From: Speluncibacter jeojiensis
GTDB lineage: Bacteria; Actinomycetota; Actinomycetes; Mycobacteriales; Mycobacteriaceae
Reading direction: 5' to 3'
Assembly (NCBI RefSeq): GCF_029589495.1
Contig: NZ_JAAIVF010000001.1
Span: 1,054,001-1,118,000, forward strand
DNA: 64,000 nucleotides
The notes beneath the pieces were generated by a model. It worked only from the letters and a program-made list of their open reading frames with translations. It was not told the DNA's origin and ran no database searches. This document shows, one piece after another, positions 1,639 to 60,509 of this stretch (its first letter is position 1; every line of letters begins with the position of its first letter). The translations under genes and the position numbers were made by a program.

Positions 1639-1854
1639 TCAGTCCTCGTCGTCGACCCGGAAGCCGACCTTGACGGTCACCTGGATGTGGGCGACGGACC
1701 CGTCGACGACGTGGCCGCGGGTGTGCACCACCTCGAACCACTCGCAGTTGCGGATCGTCGCCGCCGCCCGCGAGACAGCCTTGCGGATGGCGTCGTCGTA
1801 GCCGACGCTCGAGGAGCCGACGACCTCGGTGACCCGGTAGACGTGATCGCTCAT
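1639..1854 (-). CDS. Dodecin family flavin-binding protein
   Basis: 71 residues beginning MSDHVYRVTEVVGSSSVGYD. Dodecins are small dodecameric hollow-sphere proteins that store or buffer flavins. Visible family features are the N-terminal YRVTEVVGSS strand, the AIRKAVSRAAATIRN helix, the flavin-stacking Trp in CEWFEVV and the closing strand VAHIQVTVKVGFR. Length and sequence agree with mycobacterial dodecins (Rv1498A type). The start is fixed by GAGAGGA just upstream on the minus strand. It lies 49 bases downstream of a membrane protein gene on the same strand and may share its transcript. Confidence 0.93.
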   Translation of the reverse strand: MSDHVYRVTEVVGSSSVGYDDAIRKAVSRAAATIRNCEWFEVVHTRGHVVDGSVAHIQVTVKVGFRVDDED

Positions 1855-1903
1855 GGCAAATCCTCTCTCGAGAGGGCCGGGTATTCCGCGAGCGTACGCC
1901 GGA

Positions 1904-2437
1904 TCAGCGTGTCGGCACCGGCGTTTGCGACCGGTCCCCGGCCGCACCGACATCCTTCTGCGCGACCGCGAGAGCCCGCCCGAGGGTGCGCACCGCGAAC
2001 CACACCGCACCCGCCGCGAGCGGCAGGTTCAGGCCCACGCCGAGCCCGATGGCCAGCATCTTGCCGGCGCCCGGCGCGGAGGTGCAGATGTCGAACCAGC
2101 TGTCCATCGCGAGCAGCGCCGCACCGGCGACCGCGGTCAGTGCGCTGCGCGGGTCGTGGCGCCGGATCAGCCATACGGTGGCTGCGGCAAATGCTGCGAT
2201 CCCGAGGTCGAGCCCGATCCACGCGGCGGCCCAGTTGTGCGCCAGTGCGATGGAGGGCAGCGTGTTGCCCAGGTAGCCGACCCACGGCAGCATCCAGGCC
2301 ACCATGCCGCCGGCGATCAGCGCGACGATCCCCTTGAGCCCGAGCCGGCGCAGCCACGCGACCGGCGGCCATTCGCGCACGGCGGAACCACCTGATGCGA
2401 TCACGGACAGGGCGGAACCGGCGGAGAGAGGAGCCAC
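1904..2437 (-). CDS. Conserved actinobacterial membrane protein, function unknown
   Basis: 177 residues with four likely transmembrane helices (about 35-53, 72-90, 100-117 and 126-148). The pattern WxxYLxNTLPS...HNWAAAWIGLD...RRH...LLAMDSWFDICTSAPG recurs in small actinobacterial membrane proteins of unknown role; the acidic DSWFD motif lies at the end of helix 3. The C-terminal tail is short and charged. It is divergent from the two-component operon that starts at about 2606, with a palindrome in the shared upstream region, and precedes the dodecin gene on the same strand. I cannot assign a function. Confidence 0.6.
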   Translation of the reverse strand: MAPLSAGSALSVIASGGSAVREWPPVAWLRRLGLKGIVALIAGGMVAWMLPWVGYLGNTLPSIALAHNWAAAWIGLDLGIAAFAAATVWLIRRHDPRSALTAVAGAALLAMDSWFDICTSAPGAGKMLAIGLGVGLNLPLAAGAVWFAVRTLGRALAVAQKDVGAAGDRSQTPVPTR

Positions 2438-2493
2438 GCCTCCATCGTGCTGGCGACGACCCCCGTTGTCGGCACCGCCAACCCACCAACCGT

Positions 2494-2513
2494 GGGTAGG
2501 GTTTTCCCTACCC
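2494..2513. promoter_or_regulatory. Palindromic operator candidate GGGTAGGG-TTTT-CCCTACCC
   Basis: A perfect inverted repeat with 8-base arms and a TTTT centre, between the divergent membrane gene (start 2437) and the histidine kinase gene (start about 2606). The position and symmetry suit a dimeric LuxR-type response regulator, most simply the one encoded downstream at 3880-4530. Its four-T centre could also form an RNA hairpin, but no T tail follows. Confidence 0.55.
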
Positions 2514-2605
2514 GTCGTCCGTCAACGGTCAAGGAGGCACGTCGCGATCCAATATCGTGGGCCCGAGACCCATCATGGGACGCAGACCGGAGGGCGGTGG
2601 ACGAC

Positions 2606-3892
2606 GTGACCAGCACCCGGTCCCTGCGCATTCCGACCGACCCGGCGCGCGCACCGTTCGCGTCCGAGTTGTGGCTGGCCGCGATCGGGCTGCTCTTCGA
2701 CGCGGTCACCGGCCTGGCGGGGCTGGCACTGTTGCTGCTGTTCGCGCTGTCCCTGCTGCTCTACCCGCTCGTGTACATCGGCCTGCCGCTGCCGGTCTGG
2801 TCCGCGGCACTGCTGCTGCGGCTGAGCCGGTTCCAGCGTCGGCCCATGCTGATCACCCTGGGCGCCGAGATCGGCGAGCCCACCGCGGTCGAGACGGCCG
2901 GCTCAGCACGCGAGCGGGCGCACACGGCGCTGACCGCACGGACGCTGTGGCGCAGCGTCGGGTACTGGGCGCTGCGGATCCCGTTGACCGTGCTCACCGT
3001 CGGCGGCGTGGTCGCGTTGCTCGCCGGGCCGATCGCGCTGGCCGCGTTGCCCGGCTACTGGCGCAACTACCCCACCCGGTCCGCGGACTTCGGCCCGGTG
3101 ACCATCCACACCTGGTTCGGTACGGCGGTCGCCGCCGCGTGCGCGCTGATCTTCCTGTTCCTGGCCACCCCGGTGCTCATCCGCTGGCTCGCCGACCTCG
3201 ACGTGGTGGCGGCGCGTGCGCTGCTGGCGCCGCAGACCCTCACCGAGCGGGTCGCCGAGCTGACCACCAGCCGCCAGCGTGTGGTCGACTCCGCGGAAGC
3301 CGAGCGGCGCCGCATCGAACGCGACCTGCACGACGGGGCGCAGCAGCGGTTGGTGTCGCTGGCCATGCTGCTGGGCCGGGTGCGGTCCCGGCTCGGCCCC
3401 GACGCCGATCCGGTCACCCGCGAACTGGTCGACCAGGCGCACCGGGAGGCGAAGGCGTCGATCACCGAACTGCGGGACCTGACCCGCGGGCTGCACCCGC
3501 CGGTGCTCACCGACCGCGGACTCGACGCCGCACTGTCCGCGGTGGCCGCCCGCGCGCCCATCCCGGTCTCGATCGAAGTGGCACCCGAGCTCACCGGCGA
3601 GCACCGTCCCCCGGCGACCCTCGAGGCGATCGTGTATTTCGTTGTCGCCGAGGCACTCACGAACGTCGCCAAGCACGCCGGCGCCTCGCACGCGTGGGTC
3701 CGCGTCACGCGCACCCCGGCCCGGCTGCGCGCGGTCATCATCGACGACGGCCGCGGCGGAGCGCATCCGGTTCCCGGCGGCGGGCTGACCGGCATCGCGG
3801 ACCGGCTCAGCGGCATCGACGGCACGCTGCACATCGACAGCCCGGCGACGGGGACGACGACGGTGACCGTGGAGGTGCCGTGCGCATCGTGA
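2606..3892 (+). CDS. NarL-type sensor histidine kinase with N-terminal putative sensor membrane domain
   Basis: About 428 residues. The first 220 hold four hydrophobic segments in the style of the PF13796 putative sensor domain. A HisKA_3 dimerisation helix follows with RRRIERDLHDGAQQRL, His242 being the predicted phosphorylation site. The HATPase_c domain shows the N-box AEALTNVAKHA and G-boxes DDGRGG and GGGLTGIADR. The start is uncertain: GTG 2606 is chosen as nine codons upstream nothing resembles the family, but GTG 2597, right after GGAGGG, is an alternative. It overlaps the response regulator gene by 13 bases, so the two are translationally coupled. The signal is unknown; these kinases often sense membrane or envelope state. 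Confidence 0.88.
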   Translation: MTSTRSLRIPTDPARAPFASELWLAAIGLLFDAVTGLAGLALLLLFALSLLLYPLVYIGLPLPVWSAALLLRLSRFQRRPMLITLGAEIGEPTAVETAGSARERAHTALTARTLWRSVGYWALRIPLTVLTVGGVVALLAGPIALAALPGYWRNYPTRSADFGPVTIHTWFGTAVAAACALIFLFLATPVLIRWLADLDVVAARALLAPQTLTERVAELTTSRQRVVDSAEAERRRIERDLHDGAQQRLVSLAMLLGRVRSRLGPDADPVTRELVDQAHREAKASITELRDLTRGLHPPVLTDRGLDAALSAVAARAPIPVSIEVAPELTGEHRPPATLEAIVYFVVAEALTNVAKHAGASHAWVRVTRTPARLRAVIIDDGRGGAHPVPGGGLTGIADRLSGIDGTLHIDSPATGTTTVTVEVPCAS

Positions 3893-4530
3893 TCGCCGAG
3901 GACTCGGTGCTGCTGCGCGAGGGGGTGCGCAGCCTCCTGATCGAGCAGGGCGCCGAGGTGGTCGCCGCGGTCGGCGACGGCGAACAGTTGCTGCGGTCCG
4001 TCGCGGAGCATCGGCCGGACGTGTGCATCGTCGACGTGCGGATGCCGCCGACCTTCACCGACGAGGGTCTGCGCGCGGCGCTGGTCATCCGGCGGCAGTG
4101 GCCGGACATCGGGGTGCTGGTGCTGTCGCAGTACGTCGAGGAGCGCTACGCGACCGAGTTGATCGGCGACAGCTCGCAGGGCGTCGGCTACCTGCTCAAG
4201 GACCGGGTCGCCGACGTCGAGGAGTTCTACGAGGCCGTGACCCGGGTCGCCGACGCGGGCACCGCGATCGACCCGGACGTGATCAGTCAGCTGCTGGCCC
4301 GCAGCCGCCGCCAGGACCCCCTCGCCACGCTCAGCCCCCGCGAGCGCGAGGTCCTCGCCGCGATGGCCCGCGGAATGTCCAACGCGGGCATCGGATCCGA
4401 GCTGTGCATCGGCTCGGCGGCCGTGGAGAAGCACATCACGAACATCTTCCTGAAGCTCGGACTGAGCACCTCGGGCGGCGAGCACCGTCGGGTGCACGCC
4501 GTGCTGCGGTATCTGGGCGCCGAGTCGTGA
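3880..4530 (+). CDS. NarL/LuxR-type response regulator
   Basis: 216 residues starting at GTG 3880, inside the end of the kinase gene. The receiver domain (1-120) has the acidic pair AEDS near the N-terminus, the phospho-acceptor Asp52 in CIVDVRMPP and Lys in LLKDRV. A LuxR-type HTH (about 145-205) has LSPREREVLAAMARGMSN and EKHITNIFLKL. It is the output partner of the overlapping kinase and may bind the palindrome at 2494-2513. The following gene starts at GTG 4527 within its stop (GTGA), so all three form one operon, and that product is a likely part of the response. Confidence 0.93.
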   Translation: MRIVIAEDSVLLREGVRSLLIEQGAEVVAAVGDGEQLLRSVAEHRPDVCIVDVRMPPTFTDEGLRAALVIRRQWPDIGVLVLSQYVEERYATELIGDSSQGVGYLLKDRVADVEEFYEAVTRVADAGTAIDPDVISQLLARSRRQDPLATLSPREREVLAAMARGMSNAGIGSELCIGSAAVEKHITNIFLKLGLSTSGGEHRRVHAVLRYLGAES

Positions 4531-11027: not shown

Positions 11028-11942
11028 ATGACCACCGACGCCGCTGACCAGCATGTGGCGGCCACCCACGCGACGACAGGTCCGGCCTCCGCGGTCTGTT
11101 CAGTGGCGCCCCCGGCGCTGTCGGCCTGCCCTACGGGTCGTGATCTTCCCAAGTCGATGCTGGAACGGATGACGCTGATCCTCGATGCGTTCGATCGACC
11201 CTCGACACGGCTGACCCTCAAGCAGATCGCAGATCGGACCCGGCTTCCGCAGTCGACAACGCACCGCATACTCGACCAGCTGATATATCTGCACTGGATC
11301 AACCACGGCTCTTTCGGCTACACCCCGGGCCGGCGCGCGCTCGGCCTGGGCGGGCACGACGCCAAGCCCTGTGAGATCGGCGAGATCCGCAAGGCCGCCG
11401 CGCCGCACCTGCACGAGTTGCACCTGCGCACAGGCGCCGCTGTACACCTGGCCGTTCTGGACGGCCCAGACGAGATCTACCTCGACAAGATCGGCGGCAG
11501 ATTCGCGGCGTCGCTGGCCTCGCGCGTCGGCGGGCGCAACCCCGCCCACATCACCACCGGCGGACGCGCGATGCTCGCAGGACTCGATCCACAGCACATC
11601 GACACGTTGGTTCACGACAATCTGCGACGGCCCAGCAACCCGCGCGATTGGACACTGGGCGGCCTACACAAGGAACTCGACCAGATCCGGCGGCGCCGCG
11701 GACTCTCGATCGACCACACCGGCACCATGAATTTCGCCAGCGTCGCAATGGCGATAAGTGGATCTGATGGCCCGGTGGCGGCGATCTGCCTCTGCCCCGA
11801 ATCGAGCCATGCGACCCTCGGGCACGTCGCGCCGCTCCTCGTCGAGGCTGTCCGGCAGACGTCCCTCGAGCTGTACCCACAGGACGCGGATCAGCCGGCC
11901 GCCCCGAACATAAAGATCAGCAATACTTCTCATGCGACGTAG
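11028..11942 (+). CDS. IclR-family transcriptional regulator
   Basis: 304 residues. After a variable 40-residue N-terminus, a winged helix (about 45-110) shows MLERMTLILDAFDRPSTRLTLKQIADRTRLPQSTTHRILDQL, a typical IclR HTH. The effector-binding domain follows (AAAPHLHELHLRTGAAVHLAVLDGPDEIYLDKIGG, then TTGGRAMLA). It is the first gene of the sulfonation block and shares a near-identical promoter/operator with the CysQ operon, so both are probably switched together. Its own targets may be the MFS and SDR genes that face it. The ligand is unknown; IclR proteins often sense aromatic or small organic acids. Confidence 0.9.
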   Translation: MTTDAADQHVAATHATTGPASAVCSVAPPALSACPTGRDLPKSMLERMTLILDAFDRPSTRLTLKQIADRTRLPQSTTHRILDQLIYLHWINHGSFGYTPGRRALGLGGHDAKPCEIGEIRKAAAPHLHELHLRTGAAVHLAVLDGPDEIYLDKIGGRFAASLASRVGGRNPAHITTGGRAMLAGLDPQHIDTLVHDNLRRPSNPRDWTLGGLHKELDQIRRRRGLSIDHTGTMNFASVAMAISGSDGPVAAICLCPESSHATLGHVAPLLVEAVRQTSLELYPQDADQPAAPNIKISNTSHAT

Positions 11943-12046
11943 CTGATCGACCTCGTTGGCCTGCAGTCGTGTCCGTCTGCGCTGGAAGTGATCGGAAGGC
12001 GCCGCCGTCCACCGGGCTGTTCCACGAGGCACTGGCGCCTTCCGGT

Positions 12047-12886
12047 TCAGGCGGTGACACGGGCGGCGTTGCCCGCATCAACTGGCAGAACGGTGCCGCT
12101 GACGTGCGCCGCGGCCTCGGCGGTGAAGAACAGCACCGCCCGGGTGATCTCGGCCGGGTCCAGCCAGGCGACGGGCTGCGCGTGCAGGCCTCGCATGATG
12201 TGCTCGATGTCGTCGGGCCCGGGGTTGTCGAGATCGGGACGCAGGTGCCGGTAGAGGGCGTCGTTGTGCAGCATCCCGGTGGCGATGTTGCCGGGCGCGA
12301 TCGCGTTGACGGTGATCCCGTGCCCGGCAAGGTCGAGGGCGGCGCTCTTGGTCAAACCGATCACCCCCCACTTGGAGGCGCTGTACGCGGCCATGTTGGT
12401 GTTCCCCGCGCGGCCGAGCATCGAGGAGATCGTCACGATCCGGCCGTAACCACGGTCGATCATGCCGGGGGCGACGGCGGCGAGGGTGTTGAACACACCG
12501 GTGAGGTTGGTGCCGACCACCTCGTTCCACATCTCGGTGCTGGTGGCCTGCACCGGCGCCGCCGCGGACACGCCCGCGTTGGCGATCGCGATATCGATGC
12601 GGCCGAACTCGGCGGTGGCCTGGGCGACCACCGCGTCCAGCGCCGCCCGGTCCGCGACGTCGGCCCGGGTCGCCAGGCAGCGTCCGCCGGCGGCCTCGAC
12701 GAGACGCACAGTCTCGGCGAAGTCCTCCTTGGTCGCCATCGGGTGGCCGATCACCTCGCGGTCCTCGCACCGGTCGACGAGCACCACGTCCGCGCCGCGC
12801 TCGGCGTACGCGACCGCGTGGGAGCGGCCCTGGCCTCGTGCTCCGCCGGTGATCAGCGCTACCCGGCCGGTGAATTCGTCCTTCAT
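12047..12886 (-). CDS. Mycofactocin-type SDR oxidoreductase
   Basis: 279 residues. The NAD motif TGGARGQGRSHA followed by AERGADVVLVDRC and a longer loop before the second Rossmann half is the signature of the SDR family whose nicotinamide is non-exchangeable and re-oxidised through mycofactocin. The catalytic Ser lies in TISSMLGRAGN and Tyr/Lys in YSASKWG; NAG and NAIAPG motifs are normal. It probably oxidises a secondary alcohol such as a terpenoid or sterol-like compound. GGAAGGG precedes ATG 12886. It lies 53 bases downstream of the MFS gene on the same strand, forming a transport-plus-oxidation pair facing the iclR gene. Confidence 0.87.
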   Translation of the reverse strand: MKDEFTGRVALITGGARGQGRSHAVAYAERGADVVLVDRCEDREVIGHPMATKEDFAETVRLVEAAGGRCLATRADVADRAALDAVVAQATAEFGRIDIAIANAGVSAAAPVQATSTEMWNEVVGTNLTGVFNTLAAVAPGMIDRGYGRIVTISSMLGRAGNTNMAAYSASKWGVIGLTKSAALDLAGHGITVNAIAPGNIATGMLHNDALYRHLRPDLDNPGPDDIEHIMRGLHAQPVAWLDPAEITRAVLFFTAEAAAHVSGTVLPVDAGNAARVTA

Positions 12887-51008: not shown

Positions 51009-52724
51009 CTATCCGCGCAGCGCCGAGGCGAAGATCGCCGGCAGCTTCGACCACGCCGGGGCACCGGCGAAGCCGGTCAGCAGCCGCCCGGTCGTCGCGG
51101 CGGTGCGGTTGTCGACGAACCACGGCGGCTTCGGCGAGATCGCGAACTCGCCGTGCATCAGCGACCGCGGCGATGGCCGGAACGGCCCCCGCACCACGGT
51201 CCGTTCCGGGCTGTCGATCAGCAAGGCGTTGTGCACCACACCGATTCCGCTCTGCACGTCGTCGAGCGTATGTCCGGGGAACGCGCCCCAGGTGGCGTTC
51301 GCGGTGAGGTACCCGACGCCGGTCCACGCGTTGACCGCGATCGTGCCGTAGCGCAGTCCCTCGAGCATCGAATCGAAGCGCTCGCCGAACTCCGAGATCG
51401 TCGCGGGGTGGGCGATGATGTTGATACCCAGTGTGCCGACGAACTGGTCGTTGGCAACCTCGATGGCCCGGATCGCGAACTCGGCTCCGTCCGCGTCGAC
51501 GTCGATCACCCCGAGCACCGGCGCGAAATACTCAGTCTGCAGCAACGGCTTTCGGTCGTCCGGATCGGTGACCAGCACACGGCCCCCCTCTGGACCGAGA
51601 CGCTGCGCATCCGGATAGGTCTGTGTCGCGCTCTCCACGCGCGCAGCGCTTCCCGGATAGTAGGCCGCCCTGGCAGGCGCGCGGTCGACGGCGCCGCGCA
51701 GCGCTTCGAGGAACTCGTCGCGCTGCGCCCACCGCGAGGACAGCACGACCACCTGAGCGGCGATGCAGTTGTACCCGCCGTTGTGCAGGCGTTGAGTCGC
51801 GACGTGCTCGGCCTGGAACTCGATGTCGGCGCGGCTCCACCGTCCCGGGAGCACGATCGTCGGCGAGACGCCGCCGAGTTCGCTGGTGATCTGTTTGTCC
51901 AGCACCGGTTCACCTGCGGCCTTGCGGCGCACTCCCTCCTCGCCGGGGCCCCACACGATCGCGTCGTGGGTCAGCGCGCTGCCGGTCATGTGCACGTGAT
52001 CGACCAGTTCGTGCCGCACCAGGTATGCGCCGACGTCGGCGCCGCCGGTGAGCAACCGGACCGCACCGACCTCGATGAGCGGCTCGAGGACCTTGGACAG
52101 CACCGGCAACAGCGGGTCGGTGATCGGGTTCAGCTTGAGTGCGACCACGCGATTGTGCGCGATGAGTTCGTACAACGTGTCCAGCGGTGCGATCGAGGTG
52201 ATGTTGCCCGCGCCGAGCACCACGCCGACGCCGTTGGTCCGAGCGGGATCGAGTTGCGCGAGTCCCGCCTGCCTCCGTGCCGTGTCGGCGTCGACGCCCG
52301 GCTCCAGCCAGACCTCGGCGCTGAAACCGCTGAGCAGCAACTTGTCGTAGACGCCGGCGGGCAACACCTTGACCGCGGTGCGGCCGCCGGGCGCAGCGCC
52401 GAAGGAGACGCCGTCCAATGGGCTACGGCCTGCTTCCAGCGCCGCCAGGCTGGCGGACAGCGCCGCCGTACCGGTCGCCACCGGGTACGGGCCGGATATC
52501 CATTCCTCGCCGACGAGCGGGGAGTTCCGGTCGAGTCCCTTGATCCCGATCGCCGCGTCGACCCACTCCGCCGCGTGGGACACGGTGAGTTCGTGGACGC
52601 GTTCGAGCAAGCGGCGGCGCTCGGCGAGTGACATCCCCGCCCACGCCTTCTCGCCTTCGACGAGTTCGGCAAGCGCCTGATCTACGGCAGGAGCGACTCC
52701 GGCGGGCGGGATTTCGTTCGTCAC
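51009..52724 (-). CDS. Aldehyde dehydrogenase family protein
   Basis: 571 residues, longer than the usual 480-500 of the family. The catalytic Cys320 lies in NGGYNCIAAQ and Glu282 in TSELGG; both are placed as in active enzymes. VGVVLGAGNITSIAPLDTLYEL is the cofactor-binding region. It would oxidise an aldehyde to the acid with NAD(P). It faces away from the PucR gene, and a TTGTG/CACAA dyad 100 bases upstream of its start resembles sites near the pucR-MFS promoters. With the alkylsulfatase operon it fits the aldehyde to fatty acid step. Confidence 0.85.
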   Translation of the reverse strand: MTNEIPPAGVAPAVDQALAELVEGEKAWAGMSLAERRRLLERVHELTVSHAAEWVDAAIGIKGLDRNSPLVGEEWISGPYPVATGTAALSASLAALEAGRSPLDGVSFGAAPGGRTAVKVLPAGVYDKLLLSGFSAEVWLEPGVDADTARRQAGLAQLDPARTNGVGVVLGAGNITSIAPLDTLYELIAHNRVVALKLNPITDPLLPVLSKVLEPLIEVGAVRLLTGGADVGAYLVRHELVDHVHMTGSALTHDAIVWGPGEEGVRRKAAGEPVLDKQITSELGGVSPTIVLPGRWSRADIEFQAEHVATQRLHNGGYNCIAAQVVVLSSRWAQRDEFLEALRGAVDRAPARAAYYPGSAARVESATQTYPDAQRLGPEGGRVLVTDPDDRKPLLQTEYFAPVLGVIDVDADGAEFAIRAIEVANDQFVGTLGINIIAHPATISEFGERFDSMLEGLRYGTIAVNAWTGVGYLTANATWGAFPGHTLDDVQSGIGVVHNALLIDSPERTVVRGPFRPSPRSLMHGEFAISPKPPWFVDNRTAATTGRLLTGFAGAPAWSKLPAIFASALRG

Positions 52725-52823
52725 GGTGACAGCCTCCGATACGACAAGTGTTTGACATCACAATTCTGCGCCGGTGTCTCCCCGCTGTGGGCTGTGTGCG
52801 CGGAAGGGATTTCGTCGAGAGGC

Positions 52824-52839
52824 TTGTGCGACCACACAA
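52824..52839. promoter_or_regulatory. Dyad TTGTG-cgacca-CACAA upstream of the aldehyde dehydrogenase
   Basis: Perfect 5-base arms in the 117 bases between the pucR stop and the aldehyde dehydrogenase start. Related TGTG/CACA dyads occur at 54094-54107 and 54178-54188 in the pucR-MFS gap, so it may be an operator of the PucR-type regulator. Confidence 0.5.
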
Positions 52840-52841
52840 TC

Positions 52842-54071
52842 TCAGTCCGCGAGGTGGTGGGCCGCCCGCCTGATCTCCAGCGCTGCCCCGAGTCGCATGA
52901 TCGAGGTGACGTCGTTCGGGTCCATACCGAGCAGTTCCTCGATTCTGTTGATCCTGTTGTTGACCGTGTTCGGGTGGACATGCAGATCACGCGCAGTCGG
53001 CGCCCGGTCGAGGTTGTGCGCGTAGTAACTCTCCAGGGTTTCGAGCAGTTCCGGATGCGGCTCGAGCGGCGCCAGGATCATCAGCAGGTGATCACTGCCG
53101 GCGGTCCGCCGGGTGAGTTGGTAGCTCAGCGCCACATCCTCTATCCGGTACAGCCCCGCGGGGCTACGCTCCGCCACCGCCAGATCGAGGATGTCCTGGG
53201 CGAGCGCGCTGCTCGCCGGGAGGGAGTCGGTCTCGGCATAGCCGACCAGGCCGGCGGTGACCGCAACCCCGGCCGCCGCACCGATCCGGTCGATCAGTGC
53301 CGCAGCAACCTGCGCAGCACGCCGGGGGCTCTCACCATCCCACGGAATCAGGATCTGCCCACCTTCGGGTTCGAGCAGTGCCAAGACCTGTTCGGTGCCA
53401 CCACCGACCAGGACCCGGTGGACCTGTCGGAGTTTGCGGCGGCCCGCGACCGCACGCCTGGTCGCGTCGTCGCCGCGTTCGTCGGCGAGTTCCGCGAAGG
53501 CCACGGCCAGTACCGCATATCGCCTGGCCAGTCGGACCCCGAAGCGTTCCGCTTCCTCGGTCGCGTTCTGCCCACTGAGCAACAGTCGCGCCAGGAGATG
53601 GTCGGCACCGCGATCCTCACTGCTGATCACCGCCATCTCCGCCTGATAGGAATCGACGACGGCACGGACCATCACCTCGTGCAGGTCGAAATAGCCGAGC
53701 ATGAGGTATCGCAGACCCTCGACGTCCGCCTCACCGGCCTCCTCCCCGCATGCCTGGAGGAACATGCGGCCGCCGTAGTGCCAGTTGTGTAGGACCAATG
53801 ACAGCGGGACACCTTCGGCGGCGCGTTGCGCTCCCCTGCTCCGCGCACCCTTGAGGTCCGGCTCCCGGAGCGGCTCGTGCTCGCGCAACGAGCGAACCAC
53901 CAGTGCCAGGTAGTGCCGGACCGTCGCCGGCACTTCCTGCTCACGAATGCCCACCGGAAGGTGGCCCGCAGAGGGTCCGACCGCGCCGGCCCTGGCCACC
54001 GCATCGAAGCGCTTGTAGACCCGATCGAGGATCGCCAACGCCGATCGAGGGACCGGTCCGTCGCCACTCAT
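52842..54071 (-). CDS. PucR/CdaR-type transcriptional regulator
   Basis: 409 residues from ATG 54071. The N-terminal and middle regions are helical and GGDEF-like in outline (LRQVHRVLVGGGTEQVLALLEPEGGQILIPW); the C-terminal HTH_30 is clear: LLETLESYYAHNLDRAPTARDLHVHPNTVNNRINRIEELLGMDP. These regulators usually activate catabolic genes in response to the substrate. It sits between the aldehyde dehydrogenase gene and the divergent MFS-ligase-sulfatase-alcohol dehydrogenase operon, which it probably controls. An in-frame ATG at 54140 would add 23 residues. Confidence 0.9.
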   Translation of the reverse strand: MSGDGPVPRSALAILDRVYKRFDAVARAGAVGPSAGHLPVGIREQEVPATVRHYLALVVRSLREHEPLREPDLKGARSRGAQRAAEGVPLSLVLHNWHYGGRMFLQACGEEAGEADVEGLRYLMLGYFDLHEVMVRAVVDSYQAEMAVISSEDRGADHLLARLLLSGQNATEEAERFGVRLARRYAVLAVAFAELADERGDDATRRAVAGRRKLRQVHRVLVGGGTEQVLALLEPEGGQILIPWDGESPRRAAQVAAALIDRIGAAAGVAVTAGLVGYAETDSLPASSALAQDILDLAVAERSPAGLYRIEDVALSYQLTRRTAGSDHLLMILAPLEPHPELLETLESYYAHNLDRAPTARDLHVHPNTVNNRINRIEELLGMDPNDVTSIMRLGAALEIRRAAHHLAD

Positions 54072-54093
54072 CGTTCCCGCCTTCGCCGCAGAT

Positions 54094-54188
54094 TGTGCTC
54101 CCGCACACCCTCCAGGCGTCGGTTTGTGCGAAATCGCCATTGCCGGCCTGGTGGGCCCATCCTACGGTGGAATCCAGCACAACGTGTG
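54094..54188. promoter_or_regulatory. pucR-MFS intergenic control region with repeated TGTG/CACA dyads
   Basis: Holds TGTGC-tccc-GCACA (54094-54107), a half-site TTTGTGCG (54123-54130) and CACA-acg-TGTG (54178-54188). The divergent pucR (54071) and MFS (54287) starts lie on either side. The recurring words also appear before the aldehyde dehydrogenase gene. Confidence 0.45.
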
Positions 54189-54286
54189 GCTCATATCACA
54201 GTCACGTGCCGGTTGTAATCGATCGGACACTGCTCACCACCGTTCGTTCCTTGCGCGGCCCCTTGCGCCCGAAAACAGGAGCACTC

Positions 54287-55654
54287 ATGTCCCAAACCAA
54301 CATCGCTGCCCCATCGGACGCGGCGTCTCCCGCACCGTCGGCCCGACAGTCCGGCGTCTCGCGGTCGCGCGGATGGACCGTGACCGCACTTCTGCTCGCG
54401 CTGATGATGATCAATTTCGGCGACAAGGCCGTCCTGGGACTCGCCGCGAACGACATCCGTCACGAGTTCGGGCTGAGCGCCGCGCAATACGGCACCATCG
54501 CCAGCGGATTCTTCCTGCTGTTCAGCATCTCCGCGCTCGCCGTCGGGTTCATCGCCGACCGGTTCGCGACCAAACCGGTGTTGCTCGTGCTCGCCGTCGT
54601 CTGGGCGGTCGCGCTGCTGCCGGTTCTGGGCGCGGCGGGATTCGGTGTCCTGCTGGCATCCCGGATCGTGCTCGGCGCCGCGGAAGGCCCGGCATTCGGC
54701 GTCGCCAATCATGCCGTGCAGAAGTGGTTCGTCGACGCCGACCGCAACGTCCCCGCGGCGCTGCTCAGCCTCGGCCCGGCACTCGGGGTGATGGTCGCGG
54801 CACCGACACTGACCTGGCTGATGGTGCATCACGGCTGGCGATCGATGTTCGTCGCACTGATCGTGGCCGGCGTGGTGTGGGCGGTCGTCTGGGCAGTGGC
54901 AGGCAGGGAGGGCCCACTCGGTGCGCACTCGCATGGCACTGCCGAACCAGCATCTGCTGAGGGTGTCGAGGACGTACCCGCGGTCTCGGCCCTCCGGGTG
55001 CTGTCGACCGGGACATGGATCGGTTGCTCGATCGCCGTGTTCGCCGCCTACTGGTCCCTGTCCCTGGTCGTCTCCTGGCTCCCGCCGTATCTGACGAACG
55101 GTGCGGGGTACAGCAAGTCGCAGACCGGCCTGCTCACCGCCCTCCCGTGGGTGGCCGGCGCGGTCGCGGTCGTCGCGCAGGGTGTCGTCACCCAGCGGTT
55201 GATGAAGCGCGGCGTCTCGGCCAGATGGGCACGCGGCGCACTGGGGGGCGGCGTCGTGATCGCCGCGGGCGTCTGCACCTGGGCATTCGTCCACGTGCCC
55301 AACGGCCCCATGAAGCTGGCCCTGATGGCGTTGGGGCTGGGTATCTCCGGCGTGATCTTCACGGTCGCCACCACCGCGTGCGGACAGATCTCACCGGCAC
55401 GGTCCCGCGGTGCCGTGCTCGGCGCGTTCGTCGCGGTCTATTCCCTGGCCGGTGTCGCTGCGCCGTTCGTGACCGGCCGACTCGTCGGCGACGCCGGTTC
55501 GGCCCCGATCCACGGCTACGACACGGTCTTCATGCTCACCGGGATCATCCTCGTCGTCGGCGGCATCGCCGCGGTCGCGTTGATCAGACCCGAACGCGAT
55601 GCAGCCCGCCTGAGGACCCGCGCAACCACCTCTTCTCGGCACTGCGCCAACTGA
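54287..55654 (+). CDS. MFS permease of the alkyl sulfate module
   Basis: 455 residues with 12 predicted helices. Helix 1 has MMINFGDKAVLGLAANDIRHEFGLS, and GFIADRFATKPV is motif A; the RIVLGAAEGPAFGVANHAVQKWF stretch matches the anion:cation symporter (ACS) group, which takes up organic anions. An alkyl sulfate or similar amphiphilic anion is a sensible substrate given the sulfatase downstream. AGGAG precedes ATG 54287. It is the first of four to five genes spaced by 4-86 bases. Confidence 0.87.
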   Translation: MSQTNIAAPSDAASPAPSARQSGVSRSRGWTVTALLLALMMINFGDKAVLGLAANDIRHEFGLSAAQYGTIASGFFLLFSISALAVGFIADRFATKPVLLVLAVVWAVALLPVLGAAGFGVLLASRIVLGAAEGPAFGVANHAVQKWFVDADRNVPAALLSLGPALGVMVAAPTLTWLMVHHGWRSMFVALIVAGVVWAVVWAVAGREGPLGAHSHGTAEPASAEGVEDVPAVSALRVLSTGTWIGCSIAVFAAYWSLSLVVSWLPPYLTNGAGYSKSQTGLLTALPWVAGAVAVVAQGVVTQRLMKRGVSARWARGALGGGVVIAAGVCTWAFVHVPNGPMKLALMALGLGISGVIFTVATTACGQISPARSRGAVLGAFVAVYSLAGVAAPFVTGRLVGDAGSAPIHGYDTVFMLTGIILVVGGIAAVALIRPERDAARLRTRATTSSRHCAN

Positions 55655-55676
55655 TTTCGAACAGGAGAACTCCAGC

Positions 55677-57224
55677 ATGCTCAATCTCGCCGTGATCCTC
55701 GAGGACAGCGCGCGCGAGGCGCCGGACCACATTGCCATCGTCGCGGCCGGTACCCGGATGACCTACCGGGAACTCGATCAGGCCGCCAACCGGGTCGCCC
55801 ACCTGCTGCGCTCGCTCGGGCTCGAACCCGGCGACCGTGTCGTCATGCAATGCCCGAACGTGCCGGACTTCCCGGTCGTCTACTTCGGGATCCTCAAGGC
55901 CGGCTGTGTCGTCGTACCCGTCAACGTCCTGCTGAGATCCCGCGAGATCGCCTACCACCTTCGCGACTCGAACGCCAAGGCGTTCTTCGCGTTCGAGGAC
56001 CCGTTTGGATCCGATGCCTGGGATGCGTTTGCGGCGAACGAGTCCTGTGAGCGTTTCTTCCAGTTGGGCACGTCCACGCCCGGTCGTGGAGTCTCCACTG
56101 CGCTCTGGTCCGCACTCGACTGTCATTCGCCCACATTCGAATCCGCGTCGACAGCAGCCGACGACACCGCCGTCATCCTCTATACCAGCGGCACCACAGG
56201 GCAGCCGAAGGGCGCTCAACTCACCCACGCGAACATGCTGCAGAACGCCCAGGTTGCCAGCCGGTTGTTCGGGAGCGAAGACCACGACGTCTACTTGGCC
56301 GCTCTGCCGCTGTTCCACGTCTTCGGCCTGACCTGCCAGTTGAACACGGCCCTGCTGGGCGGGGCGAGCGTCGTGCTGCAACCTCGCTTCGAGCCCGGCG
56401 AGACGCTGGTGCTCATGCTGCGCGAGAGGGTGACCGTCTTCGCCGGCGTGCCGACCATGTACCTGGCACTGCTCGCGCACGCCGCCCGGTCCGACCCTTC
56501 CGATCTCGATCAGTTGGCGCGCCACCTTCGCATGGCCAACTCCGGCGGGTCCGCGCTGCCGCTGGAGGTGCTGCGCCAGTTCAAGGATCGCTTCGGCGTG
56601 CAGATCCTCGAGGGCTACGGCCTGTCCGAGACCAGTCCCATCGCCACCTTCAACCGGACCGACCGGCCCACCAAGCCGGGGTCGGTCGGCCTCCCGATCT
56701 GGGGAGTCCAGGTCAAGGTCGTCGACCAGGACGGGCACGAGGTGCGGGACGGGGAACTCGGCGAGATCGTGATCCGCGGCCACAACGTGATGAAGGGCTA
56801 TCACGATCGCCCCGACGAGACGGCGGCTGCGATGCGTGGCGGCTGGTTTCACACCGGTGACATCGGGCGGCGGGACGACGACGGCTACTTCTACGTCGTC
56901 GACCGCGCCAAGGACATGATCATCCGCGGCGGCTACAACATCTATCCGCGGGAACTCGAAGAGGTGCTGATGACTCACCCCGCGGTGAGCATGGTTGCGG
57001 TGGTGGGTGTTCCGCATCCCACCCACGGCGAGGAGGTCAAGGCCTTCATCGTTCCCTCCGCGGGCGCCGACACCACCGAGGACGCGTTGGTCCAGTGGTG
57101 CCGGGCGAACATGGCCGCCTACAAGTACCCGCGCTTGCTCGAATTCCGTGAATCCCTCCCGCTCTCGGGTACCGGGAAGGTCCTCAAGCGCGAACTGATC
57201 TCCGCTGCAGCGGAAAGGAACTGA
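55677..57224 (+). CDS. Fatty acyl-CoA ligase (AMP-forming)
   Basis: 515 residues. The adenylate-forming signature starts at Tyr169 (YTSGTTGQPKGA), followed by GYGLSETSP, HTGDIGRRDDDGYFYVVDRAKDMIIRGGYNIYP and the catalytic Lys in SGTGKVLKREL. It activates a carboxylic acid to its CoA thioester with ATP. In this operon the acid would be the fatty acid formed from the alkyl chain. AGGAG lies before ATG 55677; only four bases separate its stop from the alkylsulfatase start. Confidence 0.93.
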   Translation: MLNLAVILEDSAREAPDHIAIVAAGTRMTYRELDQAANRVAHLLRSLGLEPGDRVVMQCPNVPDFPVVYFGILKAGCVVVPVNVLLRSREIAYHLRDSNAKAFFAFEDPFGSDAWDAFAANESCERFFQLGTSTPGRGVSTALWSALDCHSPTFESASTAADDTAVILYTSGTTGQPKGAQLTHANMLQNAQVASRLFGSEDHDVYLAALPLFHVFGLTCQLNTALLGGASVVLQPRFEPGETLVLMLRERVTVFAGVPTMYLALLAHAARSDPSDLDQLARHLRMANSGGSALPLEVLRQFKDRFGVQILEGYGLSETSPIATFNRTDRPTKPGSVGLPIWGVQVKVVDQDGHEVRDGELGEIVIRGHNVMKGYHDRPDETAAAMRGGWFHTGDIGRRDDDGYFYVVDRAKDMIIRGGYNIYPRELEEVLMTHPAVSMVAVVGVPHPTHGEEVKAFIVPSAGADTTEDALVQWCRANMAAYKYPRLLEFRESLPLSGTGKVLKRELISAAAERN

Positions 57225-57228
57225 CCCC

Positions 57229-59124
57229 ATGTCGATCGAGCCCAAACCGGCCACCTCCGCCACGGTCGAGGCCAATCTCGCCGTACTCGGCGCGCTCCCC
57301 TTCGCGGACACCGAGAGCTTCGAGGACGCTCGGCGCGGCTTCGTCACCACCCTCGATCCGCCGGTCATCACCGGTCCTGACGGCCGGGTCGTGTGGGACC
57401 TGCGGCCCTATGCGTTCCTCGACGCCGCCGCACCGAGCACTGTGAATCCGAGCCTGTGGCGGATGGCGCAGTTGAACTTGCAGCACGGCCTGTTCCGCGT
57501 CTGCGAGCGCGTGCATCAGATCCGCGGCTTCGACATCGCCAACATGACGATCGTCGAGGGCGAGACCGGGTACATCGTGATCGACCCGCTGCTGAGTACC
57601 GAAGCGGTGGATGCCGGGATGTCGCTGGTACGAGAACACCTCGGCGACAAGCCCGTCACCTCGGTCGTCATCACCCACAGCCACGCCGATCACTACGGCG
57701 GCGTCAAGGCAGTGGTGACCGACGAGCAGGCACGTACCGGCCAGGTGCGGGTCGTGGCTCCCGTCGGTTTTCTCGATCACGCGGTGAGCGAGAACGTGAA
57801 CGCCGGAACGGCGATGTCCCGTCGCGCCCAGTACATGTACGGTGTCGGCATCGCCCCGGGAGCGCGGGGGCAGATGACCTGCGGGCTGGGGATCGGCCTG
57901 ACAAACGGCACGACGACACTGATCGCCCCCACCGACCTCATCACCGAATCCGGCCAGGAACTGGTGCTCGACGGAGTGCGGTTCGTCTTCCAGTACACCC
58001 CGGGCTCCGAAGCGCCGGCCGAGATGAACTTCCACCTGCCGGAGTTGCGAGCGCTGTGCATGGCGGAGAACGTCTCGCACAACATGCACAACCTGTATAC
58101 GTTGCGCGGAGCGGAGATTCGCGACGCCGCCGCCTGGAGCAACTACATTCACGAGTCGATCGAGTTGTTCGCCGACGACACCGACGTGATGTTCATCGGC
58201 CATCACTGGCCGGTGTGGGGACGCGAGAAGATCGTCGAGTTCCTCGCACAGCAGCGCGACCTGTACCGCTACATCCACGACGAGACGCTGCGCCTGGCCG
58301 CGCACGGGCGCACCGCCGTCGAGATAGCCGAACGCATCGAGCTGCCACAGTCGCTGGCCACGTTCTGGGCCAACCGCGGCTATTACGGTTCGCTCAACCA
58401 CAACGTCAAGGCCGTCTACCAGAAGTATCTCGGCTGGTTCGACGGCAACCCAGCGAACCTGCATCCGCACGAGCCGGCCGAGTCCGGACGCCGCTACGTC
58501 GACTTCATGGGCGGTCCGGACGCGGTGCTGAGCAAGGCACGCAGGTCGTTCGACGACGGCGACTACCGCTGGGTCGCACAGGTCGTCGGGCACGTGGTGT
58601 TCGCCGACCCCGGCAACCGCGAGGCCCGCGAGTTGCAGGCCGACGCATTCGAACAGCTCGGGTACCAGTCCGAGTCCGCACCCTGGCGCAACTTCTACCT
58701 CAGCGGCGCCCAGGAGCTGCGTCACGGAGTGCAGAAGCTGCCCACCACCACCGTCGCGCCGGACGTCGTACGTGCGATGACCACCGACATGCTGCTGGAC
58801 TACCTGTCCATCCGACTCAACGGGCCCAAGGCATATGAACAGTCATTCAGCGTGTTGTTCACCGTGACCGACACCGGGGAGCAACGGCTGATCCGGCTGA
58901 CCAACGGAGTCCTGGTGCGGAGCACACTCATCCCCGATCACGGCTACTCGGCGCACGTGCGACTGCCGAAGGCAACGCTCGCCGGTCTGGCCCTCGGCAC
59001 CGCCGACCTACGAGCCGCCGAATCCGCCGGGACGCTGACCGTCACCGGTGACATCGACTCGTCCGCTGCACTTTTCGAGCTCTGCGACAAATTCGAACAG
59101 TCCTTCGCCATCGTCACCCCCTGA
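57229..59124 (+). CDS. SDS-type linear primary alkylsulfatase, class III
   Basis: 631 residues, the length of SdsA1/BDS1 enzymes. An N-terminal metallo-beta-lactamase domain carries THSHADHYGG (His150, His152, Asp154, His155), the di-zinc site, with further ligands in MCMAENVSHNMHN and FIGHHWP. A dimerisation/helical domain and a C-terminal SCP2-like domain (MLLDYLSIRLNGPKA onward) follow. Class III sulfatases hydrolyse primary alkyl sulfates such as SDS to alcohol and sulfate. No signal peptide is seen, so it acts in the cytosol, needing uptake by the MFS protein. The alcohol dehydrogenase follows. Confidence 0.93.
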   Translation: MSIEPKPATSATVEANLAVLGALPFADTESFEDARRGFVTTLDPPVITGPDGRVVWDLRPYAFLDAAAPSTVNPSLWRMAQLNLQHGLFRVCERVHQIRGFDIANMTIVEGETGYIVIDPLLSTEAVDAGMSLVREHLGDKPVTSVVITHSHADHYGGVKAVVTDEQARTGQVRVVAPVGFLDHAVSENVNAGTAMSRRAQYMYGVGIAPGARGQMTCGLGIGLTNGTTTLIAPTDLITESGQELVLDGVRFVFQYTPGSEAPAEMNFHLPELRALCMAENVSHNMHNLYTLRGAEIRDAAAWSNYIHESIELFADDTDVMFIGHHWPVWGREKIVEFLAQQRDLYRYIHDETLRLAAHGRTAVEIAERIELPQSLATFWANRGYYGSLNHNVKAVYQKYLGWFDGNPANLHPHEPAESGRRYVDFMGGPDAVLSKARRSFDDGDYRWVAQVVGHVVFADPGNREARELQADAFEQLGYQSESAPWRNFYLSGAQELRHGVQKLPTTTVAPDVVRAMTTDMLLDYLSIRLNGPKAYEQSFSVLFTVTDTGEQRLIRLTNGVLVRSTLIPDHGYSAHVRLPKATLAGLALGTADLRAAESAGTLTVTGDIDSSAALFELCDKFEQSFAIVTP

Positions 59125-59184
59125 CCCGGCCCACGTATCGCGCAACCCCATCGACAGATCACGCAGAACAAGGAGCAACGATCA

Positions 59185-60312
59185 ATGAAGACCAAGGCAG
59201 CAGTCCTCAGGACCATCGGCGGCGACTGGGAGATCGAGGAGATCGACCTCGGCGACCCGGTGGCCGGCGAGGTACAGGTCCGGCTCGCCGCGTCGGGTAT
59301 GTGCCATTCGGACCATCACCTGCGCACCGGCGCCAGCCCCGTCGCCAGTTGGCCGGTCCTCGGCGGCCACGAGGGAGCCGGCGTGGTCACCAAGGTGGGT
59401 CCCGGTGTCACCGGGTTTCAGGAAGGCGATCACGTGGTGCTCGCCTTCATCCCCGCCTGCGGCACCTGCCGCCCGTGCTCGAAGGGCCTGCAGAACCTCT
59501 GCGACGAGGGCGCACGCCTGCTGACCGGCTTGGCGATCGCGGACGACACCCATCGCGCGAGCCTGAACGGTGATCCGCTCATGCCGATGTGCCTGCTCGG
59601 CACCTTCGCCCCCTACGTCACCGTCAACCAGGCCTCTGTCATCAAGATCGAGAAGGACATCCCGCTGGACAAGGCCGCTCTGCTGGGCTGCGGCGTGGCC
59701 ACCGGTTGGGGCTCGGCCACCGCGATCGGCGGGACCAAGGTCGGCGACACCGTGGTGGTCGTCGGTATCGGCGGCGTGGGCATCAACGCGGTTCAGGGCG
59801 CCGCCGCCGCCGGTGCCCGTCACGTGGTGGCGGTCGACCCGGTGGAGTTCAAGCGCACCAAGGCCCTCGAACTCGGCGCCACACACGCCTTCGCATCGAT
59901 CGAGGAAGCCCTCGAACCCGTGCGCGAGCTGACGTGGGGCCTGATGGCCGATGTCACCGTGATCACCGTCGGCGACATCCAGGGCGAGATCATCCAGCCG
60001 GCGCTGAGCCTCACCGGCAAGGGTGGACAGGTGGTGGTCACCGCCATGGGTGACTTCTCCAAGATGGAGACCACCCTCAACCTGTTCGAGCTGACATTGC
60101 TGCAGAAGCGCGTGCAGGGCGCGATCTTCGGCGGTGTGGGTCCGCGTACCCAGATCCCGCAGCTGCTCAACCACTACCGCAGCGGCGCACTCAAGCTCGA
60201 CGAACTCGTCACCCGAACCTACCGGCTCGAGGAGATCAACCAGGGCTACGACGACATGCTCGCCGGCCGCAACCTACGCGGTGTCATCAAGTACACCGAC
60301 GCCGACTACTGA
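59185..60312 (+). CDS. NDMA-dependent (mycofactocin-linked) alcohol dehydrogenase
   Basis: 375 residues. MDR fold: catalytic zinc at Cys40 in GMCHSDHH and GGHEGAGVV, structural zinc in CGTCRPCSKGLQNLC, NAD motif VVGIGGVGINAVQG. Long insert GARLLTGLAIADDTHRAS and the end LAGRNLRGVIKYT match the NDMA-dependent family, whose tightly bound NADH is re-oxidised by mycofactocin in the cell. It would oxidise the long-chain alcohol released by the sulfatase to the aldehyde. AAGGAG lies before ATG 59185. A 36-residue gene follows. Confidence 0.92.
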   Translation: MKTKAAVLRTIGGDWEIEEIDLGDPVAGEVQVRLAASGMCHSDHHLRTGASPVASWPVLGGHEGAGVVTKVGPGVTGFQEGDHVVLAFIPACGTCRPCSKGLQNLCDEGARLLTGLAIADDTHRASLNGDPLMPMCLLGTFAPYVTVNQASVIKIEKDIPLDKAALLGCGVATGWGSATAIGGTKVGDTVVVVGIGGVGINAVQGAAAAGARHVVAVDPVEFKRTKALELGATHAFASIEEALEPVRELTWGLMADVTVITVGDIQGEIIQPALSLTGKGGQVVVTAMGDFSKMETTLNLFELTLLQKRVQGAIFGGVGPRTQIPQLLNHYRSGALKLDELVTRTYRLEEINQGYDDMLAGRNLRGVIKYTDADY

Positions 60313-60398
60313 ACCGGCACAGCACCACAAGTGCGCCGGCAAGCAGCAGTTCAAGTCCGCAAAGAACTCAGCATCGACAAGACTCAAGGAGCATCGTC

Positions 60399-60509
60399 AT
60401 GGGATCGTCAGCACAGAACCTGACGCAGTACAGCAAGTTGGCCAGTCTCGGGGCGGGCCTGCTCGGCGGCGCAGCCGCCATCATCGGGCTGGTGGCATTG
60501 TCCGCGTAG
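60399..60509 (+). CDS. 36-residue single-helix membrane protein
   Basis: MGSSAQNLTQYSKLASLGAG then a Gly/Ala/Leu-rich helix ending IIGLVALSA. AAGGAG eight bases before the ATG and clean spacing support translation. It lies 86 bases after the alcohol dehydrogenase on the same strand, possibly the last gene of the operon. A small membrane subunit or helper is conceivable; no family is recognised. Confidence 0.6.
   Translation: MGSSAQNLTQYSKLASLGAGLLGGAAAIIGLVALSA

Follow-up and report, generated by a model that had tools for sequence, protein, structure and literature searches.

The window, that is, the whole stretch of 64,000 nucleotides from Speluncibacter jeojiensis that we analysed, contains six intact genes (positions 51009–60312) that probably make up an inducible module for breaking down primary alkyl sulfates of medium to long chain length, leading from the alkyl sulfate to acyl-CoA and coupled to mycofactocin. 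An earlier note had named a permease, an alkylsulfatase, an NDMA-type alcohol dehydrogenase (NDMA-ADH), an aldehyde dehydrogenase (ALDH), an acyl-CoA ligase and a PucR-type regulator, and all are present with intact frames (Table 1). It had also claimed that every step from alkyl sulfate to acyl-CoA is covered; each step has a family-level match, and the pathway interpretation is supported at the level of sequence. What we observe is the gene content, the zinc ligands of the sulfatase, the ALDH motif, the mycofactocin (mft) genes of the genome, a clade-specific linkage of permease and regulator to the sulfatase, and the recurrence of the combination. From these we infer the substrate, the direction of transport, the order of steps, the electron route, regulation, induction and dependence on mycofactocin.

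In the proposed route, the MFS permease would import the alkyl sulfate anion, which a cytoplasmic type III sulfatase would hydrolyze, releasing sulfate and a primary alcohol. This alcohol would be oxidized by the NDMA-type enzyme on its bound NAD, and the electrons would go to mycofactocin, from which MftG would pass them to respiration. The ALDH would convert the aldehyde to the acid, the ligase would activate the acid to acyl-CoA for beta-oxidation, and the PucR-type protein would control the divergent promoter.

Table 1. Features of the locus, with positions in the window
Feature	Position	Strand	Basis
Divergent aldehyde dehydrogenase, 571 aa	51009..52724	-	PF00171; aldehyde to acid predicted
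PucR-type transcriptional regulator, 432 aa	52842..54140	-	PF13556 (HTH_30)
Intergenic region between regulator and permease	54141..54286	.	By position; probable control region
MFS permease, organic-anion symporter type	54287..55654	+	PF07690; alkyl sulfate uptake predicted
AMP-forming acyl-CoA ligase, 515 aa	55677..57224	+	PF00501, PF13193, NF004837
Type III (zinc metallo-beta-lactamase fold) alkylsulfatase, 631 aa	57229..59124	+	PF14863, PF14864, PF00753
Zn-containing NDMA-type (mycofactocin-associated) alcohol dehydrogenase, 375 aa	59185..60312	+	TIGR03989
36-aa ORF with hydrophobic stretch, behind AAGGAG	60399..60509	+	Read from sequence; possibly not a gene

Layout of the locus

Permease, ligase, sulfatase and NDMA-ADH form a tight row on the plus strand, with gaps of 22, 4 and 60 bp. 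On the minus strand, the regulator and the ALDH are spaced 117 bp apart, and the regulator and permease genes diverge across 146 bp. The listed open reading frame of the permease spans 53903–55654, and its real start is likely to be the ATG at 54287. A weak imperfect palindrome at 54198–54213 is the only one found in the intergenic region, a search of that region detected no sigma-70-like promoter, and a search for operators and terminators at the locus gave nothing above chance. The right end that the earlier note gave to the locus (60509) is the end of the 36-aa frame 3' of the NDMA-ADH, which has no clear homologue among the matches listed.

The permease matches PF07690 (154.1 bits) and, below the cut-off of 395, TIGR00893 (166.5 bits). 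The ligase is best fitted by the long-chain fatty acid model NF004837 (487.3 bits; cut-off 476) and also matches PF00501 and PF13193. In the regulator, the C-terminal HTH_30 domain is clear (75.6 bits, E = 2.6e-21), and the middle GGDEF-like domain PF17853 is a weak match at 22.1 bits against a cut-off of 24.5.

The alkylsulfatase and its neighbourhoods

The domain set of a type III alkylsulfatase (the family of SdsA1, SdsAP, YjcS and Pisa1) is complete (PF00753 (MBL); PF14863, 224.2 bits; PF14864, 109.6 bits), and the protein matches PDB entry 4nur over 627 residues (E = 1.7e-214) as well as 2cfu, 4pdx and 2yhe; on this homology we regard the fold as settled. All seven zinc ligands, mapped through the SdsAP numbering in excerpts of PMC5426288, are present (H150, H152, D154, H155, E261, E280 and H325) and are kept in 104 of 104 aligned sequences. 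Activity on alkyl sulfates is a prediction from sequence.

The sulfatase belongs to a small clade, here clade A, which was recovered in two trees. In the first (57 of 104 sequences), it grouped with eight others at an SH-aLRT support of 100; in the second (45 of 107 sequences, with L198 and L059 added), it grouped with nine at 94, and this group was joined at 98 by the Streptomyces sequence L059. We counted L059 among the 50 other loci, and none of the tested neighbours lies beside its sulfatase. L064, which is 60% identical over 444 residues, falls outside the clade.

Pocket residues Y204 and G221 match those of primary alkylsulfatases as given in the same excerpts (PMC5426288). We rejected this pair as proof of primary specificity because it does not discriminate: the Tyr occurs in 58 and the Gly in 92 of 95 sequences outside clade A. 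It is possible, though doubtful, that the true substrate is another organosulfate (for example, branched, ether or laureth-type, or a natural sulfated lipid), handled by the same chemistry with a different specificity. Nine clade A sequences are invariant at positions 115, 224, 329 and 358, where the 95 others seldom share the residue, and the complete or partial type I sulfatase gene at L149 and L198, together with an FGE at L198, hints at mixed sulfate esters; the pocket Tyr and Gly and the long-chain fit of the ligase argue instead for primary alkyl sulfates.

No signal peptide was seen by eye in the sulfatase. It begins at the point where the mature SdsAP chain begins in the solved structure, and an extension of its open frame could add no more than about 10 codons (641); export is therefore unlikely, and the route would need an importer. 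This argument is indirect, because the second alkylsulfatase of the genome (C1:1124858-1126732) also has no signal peptide by eye and yet has no MFS match nearby. We excluded that enzyme as a part of the system, as it has another position in the tree and other neighbours.

The same kinds of neighbour recur around clade A sulfatases and are rare around other alkylsulfatases, more than expected by chance. Near the nine other clade A sulfatases we found MFS at eight, ligase at six, PucR at five, ALDH at four and NDMA-ADH at three, compared with 0, 2, 0, 2 and 1, respectively, near 50 alkylsulfatases outside the clade, using a query panel (from the window, L149, L152, L155, L198 and L086) that favours clade A matches. 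L198 was added to the counted loci later, its annotation having been seen first; without it, at 6 kb, the counts are 7/8 for MFS, 4/8 for PucR, 5/8 for ligase and 2/8 for NDMA-ADH in clade A, and 0, 0, 2 and 1 among 49 other loci. A flank of at least 5 kb on each side was required of the other loci, which removed 29 of them; no such limit applied to clade A. The clade A loci are not independent: there is close similarity among L007, L148 and L150, the NDMA-ADHs (91%) and ALDHs (85%) of L149 and L198 are nearly identical, and the Fisher values ignore this kinship. An NDMA-ADH is absent within 8 kb at six of the nine (at L007 the right side covers only 1.4 kb). Among the hosts of clade A clusters is Gordonia hankookensis (L008), with sulfatase and MFS. 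The core of the set is PucR, MFS and sulfatase, to which the oxidation genes appear to have been recruited separately.

Near-complete counterparts occur at L152, which belongs to another genus, and at L198, which lies on a plasmid of Rhodococcus sp. AH-ZY2 (NZ_CP126457.1, typed as conjugative in PLSDB). Both carry other ALDHs and ligases, and L198 also has an NDMA-ADH of another branch. Within about 15 kb, the plasmid has sulfatase, PucR, MFS, NDMA-ADH, ALDH and AMP-binding genes, as annotated by pipeline only. Its clade A sulfatase (64%), PucR (42%) and MFS (46%) resemble those of the window, whereas its NDMA-ADH is only 51% identical and its ALDH is of another branch; it has in addition a Fis-type regulator, the FGE and two DUF202 genes. 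Recurrence of the combination with differing parts is what would be expected if selection keeps the pathway.

Oxidation enzymes and mycofactocin

The NDMA-ADH exceeds the TIGR03989 cut-off (599.7 bits against 440), in agreement with the mycofactocin-linked family to which the earlier note had assigned it. The genome encodes mftA, mftB, mftC, mftD, mftF, mftR and MftG, the genes for which that note had advised a search, which makes a mycofactocin-dependent alcohol step plausible. Presence of mftA extends to 11 of 11 genomes examined, a set that does not include the host of plasmid L198. The substrate named for mycofactocin-dependent alcohol oxidation in the excerpts available is ethanol (TIGR03989, PMC3023750; MftG, PMC11778925). 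According to an excerpt on MftR, the binding of lauroyl-CoA by this regulator is about ten times weaker than that of oleoyl-CoA (PMC8728441), which means that C12 sulfates might fail to induce mft. Word searches of the literature found no paper that joins mycofactocin-dependent alcohol oxidation with alkylsulfatases. To our knowledge, few physiological substrates of mycofactocin-dependent dehydrogenases have been described.

The ALDH is divergent: PF00171 (Aldedh) matches at 76.6 bits over part of the protein (residues 187–347), PDB profiles give weak matches to ALDHs (best E = 1.3e-9), and 20 NCBIfam subfamily models match, none near its own cut-off. All 12 aligned homologues share E282-L-G-G and C320; from the alignment, we take E282 and C320 to be the general-base glutamate and the catalytic cysteine. 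An ELGG glutamate motif favours a hydrolytic type of ALDH, and because it is kept we set aside a CoA-acylating enzyme that bypasses the ligase.

Relatives of this ALDH lie in a PucR–ALDH–GMC operon, with the GMC-type alcohol oxidoreductase kept in 27 of 29 loci and a different PucR in 24 of 29. Such company suits a role on alcohol-derived aldehydes; it also means that the tie of the ALDH to the sulfatase rests on position. That GMC is absent from the genome, in which the best match is MftG at 37%. The locus might thus comprise two unrelated units, PucR–MFS–ligase–sulfatase–NDMA-ADH and an orphan ALDH left from a lost PucR–ALDH–GMC operon, a reading that the 117-bp gap would also fit. We consider it rather unlikely, given that the ALDH lies directly behind a sulfatase-type PucR on the same strand, where it fills an otherwise missing step, and that an ALDH is near the set in L152 and L198 too. 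The window PucR is 37–39% identical to four PucRs beside clade A sulfatases and 21–24% identical to four beside ALDH–GMC pairs, and the two kinds split at 100/100 in a tree of nine, which argues against its inheritance along with the ALDH.

The nearest relatives of the NDMA-ADH elsewhere are likewise without an adjoining sulfatase: beside those of 74–79% identity (L192, L193, L194, L196 and L197) there is no sulfatase, MFS or PucR match. The sulfatase-linked NDMA-ADHs of the window and L152 might be a single co-inherited pair; they share a group with stand-alone ones, in which the branching has no firm order. Because NDMA-ADH relatives stand without a sulfatase and the ALDH is found elsewhere with PucR and GMC, the two enzymes appear not to have been co-inherited with the sulfatase, and their placement could reflect chance or a general role in alcohol metabolism. 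Alternatively, the locus could serve to scavenge sulfate or to remove a toxic surfactant, with the carbon left to general alcohol and aldehyde enzymes that are merely next door and whose relatives elsewhere are encoded away from sulfatases. Beside the sulfatase there is just an MFS at L147, and just a PucR and an MFS at L007 (right flank 1.4 kb). We find this alternative improbable: a ligase, an NDMA-ADH and an ALDH again accompany the clade A sulfatase at L152 and L198, the ALDHs being dissimilar, and the ligase and NDMA-ADH of the window sit inside the same plus-strand row as the sulfatase.

Known systems and significance

A compact operon from SDS to acyl-CoA is already known from Psychrobacter, and the window cluster is a variant with different parts. 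The SLF module slfRCHSL, on plasmid pP62BP1 of Psychrobacter sp. DAB_AL62B, has proven SDS degradation and similarly groups a regulator with an alkylsulfatase, an alcohol dehydrogenase, an aldehyde oxidoreductase and a fatty acid-CoA synthetase in a compact cluster (PMC10779009, in excerpt). Its regulator is of the AraC/XylS type rather than PucR, the order of slfCHSL differs from that of the window, and hydrolysis is taken to occur outside the cell, whereas the window sulfatase is probably cytoplasmic; neither the word permease nor mycofactocin occurs in the paper (PMC10779009). The host also belongs to a different phylum from the actinobacterium studied here. By analogy, the window cluster would work like the SLF module without being a member of it, following the same pathway logic.

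In Pseudomonas aeruginosa, LaoABCR with SdsA1 oxidizes alcohol and aldehyde once SDS has been hydrolyzed, as we propose here (excerpts of PMC10779009, PMC6107682, PMC7318663 and PMC13291428). Unlike in the window, Pseudomonas sulfatase genes tend to sit elsewhere in the genome (PMC10779009), and the LaoABCR regulator differs from the PucR. With described mycofactocin-dependent alcohol oxidation (TIGR03989), the window shares the dehydrogenase family and the cofactor genes (PMC3023750 and PMC11778925, in excerpt).

With this locus, SDS catabolism would have an actinobacterial version that is probably cytoplasmic and dependent on an importer; the existence of a counterpart on a plasmid, typed as conjugative, bears on surfactant biodegradation. 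The cluster names a probable substrate class for a mycofactocin-dependent dehydrogenase, surfactant-derived fatty alcohols, and so opens the question of its physiological substrate to direct testing. As a tentative extension that we would not yet favour, Rhodococcus-like actinobacteria may share a catabolic island for alkyl sulfates that is carried in part on plasmids and has been put together more than once, in which varied NDMA-ADHs, ALDHs and ligases are set on the PucR–MFS–sulfatase core, alcohol electrons enter the mycofactocin pool and not NADH, and acyl-CoA may lift MftR repression of mycofactocin synthesis. If true, this relief of MftR would be a feed-forward link from detergent catabolism to cofactor supply.

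Gene content and predicted enzymes of the cluster

The permease, alkylsulfatase, NDMA-type alcohol dehydrogenase (NDMA-ADH), aldehyde dehydrogenase (ALDH), acyl-CoA ligase and PucR-type regulator that the earlier note had claimed are all present in the host genome (G000, 4.87 Mb; window at C1:1054001–1118000), and all six frames read intact from the sequence. That note placed the end of the cluster at 60509, which is the end of a 36-aa hydrophobic ORF with no clear relative among the matches listed.

Genes of the predicted alkyl sulfate cluster and the adjacent small ORF (window coordinates)
Feature	Position	Strand	Spacing or context
ALDH	51009–52724	-	117 bp from PucR
PucR-type regulator	52842–54140	-	146 bp from divergent MFS
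MFS permease	ATG 54287 to 55654	+	22 bp before ligase
Acyl-CoA ligase	55677–57224	+	4 bp before alkylsulfatase
Alkylsulfatase	57229–59124	+	60 bp before NDMA-ADH
NDMA-ADH	59185–60312	+	last of four + strand genes
36-aa hydrophobic ORF	60399–60509	+	AAGGAG ahead; directly 3' of ADH

The alkylsulfatase carries domains PF00753, PF14863 and PF14864 (Pfam profiles) and aligns over its full length with type III alkylsulfatases of known structure (4nur, E = 1.7e-214; 4pdx, 2cfu and 2yhe); its best matches are from Rhodococcus and Gordonia. When residues were mapped on a 104-sequence alignment (SdsAP numbering, from the accessible part of PMC5426288), the seven zinc ligands were complete in 104/104 sequences, this one included. 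It also has both the Tyr and the Gly of the primary-substrate pocket, which is consistent with specificity for primary alkyl sulfates but not proof of it, because both residues are common outside clade A, the group formed by the window enzyme and its nearest relatives (Tyr in 58/95 sequences, Gly in 92/95). The N terminus coincides with the start of the solved SdsAP chain, and the open frame upstream leaves room for only about 10 codons, which points to a probably cytoplasmic enzyme that would need an importer.

The ligase scores 487.3 against the long-chain fatty acid CoA ligase model NF004837, above the cut-off of 476, and the model nearest to the permease is TIGR00893 (166.5, below the cut-off of 395). 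The ALDH is, by its sequence, a divergent family member: the Aldedh domain spans residues 187–347 only (Pfam profile) and no NCBIfam subfamily model reached its cut-off. Its ELGG glutamate and C320 are invariant in 12/12 homologues.

A proposed mycofactocin-linked route to acyl-CoA

The alcohol dehydrogenase is of the claimed NDMA type (TIGR03989, 599.7 bits, cut-off 440), a family that, according to the accessible part of PMC3023750, occurs exclusively in genomes with mycofactocin. A search of the genome for mft genes, suggested earlier, was positive: G000 encodes mftA, mftB (111.3 bits, cut-off 33), mftC, mftD, mftF and mftR (276.1 bits), together with MftG (610.3 bits), and five TIGR03989 members above cut-off.

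Families and gene context together suggest every step, from substrate through regulation. The MFS permease would import the alkyl sulfate, which would be hydrolysed in the cytoplasm; the alcohol would be oxidized to the aldehyde on enzyme-bound NAD, with electrons passing to mycofactocin and MftG; and the aldehyde would be converted to the acid and then to acyl-CoA. Given that Mycobacterium smegmatis MftR binds long-chain acyl-CoAs (Kd ~1.4 µM for oleoyl-CoA, 2–4 µM for saturated C14–C18) and lauroyl-CoA about tenfold more weakly, according to the accessible part of PMC8728441, a feed-forward loop via MftR is possible for longer chains and would be weak for C12.

Clade A and repeated recruitment of oxidation genes

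Alkylsulfatase matches occur in 161/301 family genomes, and matches at least 60% identical to the window enzyme in only eight, including G000. One tree (57 of the 104 sequences) unites the window enzyme, those of the seven other genomes at this level and that of Gordonia rhizosphera with SH-aLRT 100; a second (45 sequences; window enzyme plus nine, support 94) places a plasmid copy, L198, inside the clade beside L149, from genome G212. Within 8 kb of the nine other clade A genes we found MFS at 8, ligase at 6, PucR at 5, ALDH at 4 and NDMA-ADH at 3 loci, whereas the 50 other alkylsulfatase loci that were left after 29 with short flanks had been excluded gave 0, 2, 0, 2 and 1; the contrast is descriptive, because the window and close loci supplied the panel and the loci compared are themselves kin.

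A locus in another genus (L152, genome G126) has MFS, sulfatase, NDMA-ADH (579.4 bits), ALDH (nearest model Rv0768, 469.1, below the cut-off of 775), PucR and ligase. L198, on the Rhodococcus sp. AH-ZY2 plasmid NZ_CP126457.1 (typed as conjugative), carries ALDH, NDMA-ADH (552.7 bits), a Fis-type regulator, PucR, a sulfatase 64% like the window's, MFS, a formylglycine-generating enzyme (FGE), two DUF202 genes and an AMP-binding gene. The ADH and ALDH of L149 are 91% and 85% like those of L198; both ADHs are ~51% like the window ADH, and the L149 ADH sits on a different branch. The L198 ALDH is 40% identical to the L152 ALDH and 30% (over 233 residues) to the window ALDH, and the latter two do not match each other at E 1e-5. 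A PucR–MFS–sulfatase core is thus common to several loci, with oxidation genes recruited more than once; this repeated recruitment of the same functions is the best evidence for the pathway.

In L149 a type I sulfatase (1735–4074) adjoins the NDMA-ADH, and L198 has, with its FGE (11426–12361), a 100-residue match (73%) to that sulfatase, perhaps a remnant. Small proteins directly 3' of two clade A sulfatases (L148:10445–10825; L150:8344–8742) are ~46–54% like the first annotated DUF202 gene of the AH-ZY2 plasmid (L198:12411–13090).

The closest relatives of the window ALDH (71–81% identical) have a GMC oxidoreductase alongside in 27/29 loci and a different PucR in 24/29 (L118–L146). This PucR–ALDH–GMC operon is conserved in the host family (L118–L146, L154–L165), and G000 retains its ALDH without the GMC; the best match in G000 to the missing partner is MftG (37%). 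The window PucR branches with sulfatase-side PucRs (37–39% identical), apart from ALDH-side ones (21–24%), with support 100/100. This can fairly be read as an ALDH bereft of its GMC partner that now lies beside an NDMA-ADH able to carry out the same alcohol step.

The closest relatives of the window ADH (75–79% identical) are from other genera. No sulfatase match occurred in the 1.5-kb flanks of 14 such loci (L176–L189), and no sulfatase, MFS, PucR or ALDH match above 150 residues in five longer stretches (L192, L193, L194, L196, L197). Elsewhere in G000 (C18, L195:7461–11304), tandem NDMA-type ADH genes, 60% and 64% like the window ADH, precede an ALDH gene whose product matches the L152 ALDH at 55%. 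A Rhodococcus sp. DMU1 plasmid (L199) provides a further catabolic setting of this ADH group: an NDMA-ADH 73% like the window ADH, then ALDH, alpha/beta hydrolase and FAD oxidoreductase, with a mycofactocin-coupled SDR close by.

About 7 kb past the window end, a four-gene row (C1, L086:7843–14751) holds the second alkylsulfatase-like gene of G000 together with genes for an epimerase, a 671-aa protein that matches no Pfam family and a GT2 glycosyltransferase. Pfam gives the epimerase as Epimerase only; from a motif, we take it to be SqdB-like. The same four genes occur on a Rhodococcus qingshengii plasmid (L200; 75%, 51% and 60%) and, within 8 kb, in none of the other 48 alkylsulfatase loci compared. 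This row may be a locus for a glycan that is sulfated or of the sulfoquinovose type.

Relation to known systems

The four enzyme functions (sulfatase, alcohol and aldehyde oxidation, CoA ligation) also stand together in a single operon in the Psychrobacter SLF module, with SDS degradation demonstrated, according to the accessible part of PMC10779009, and Pseudomonas aeruginosa is reported, at second hand, to use SdsA1 with LaoABCR. Within the open literature, which excludes most subscription papers, no paper was found that joins mycofactocin with alkylsulfatase (or alkyl sulfatase), or NDMA-dependent alcohol dehydrogenase with sulfatase; sulfatase mentions in the accessible part of PMC3023750 concern radical SAM maturases. 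An alkyl sulfate catabolic cluster as such is already known; this one would be a variant with a testable link to mycofactocin.
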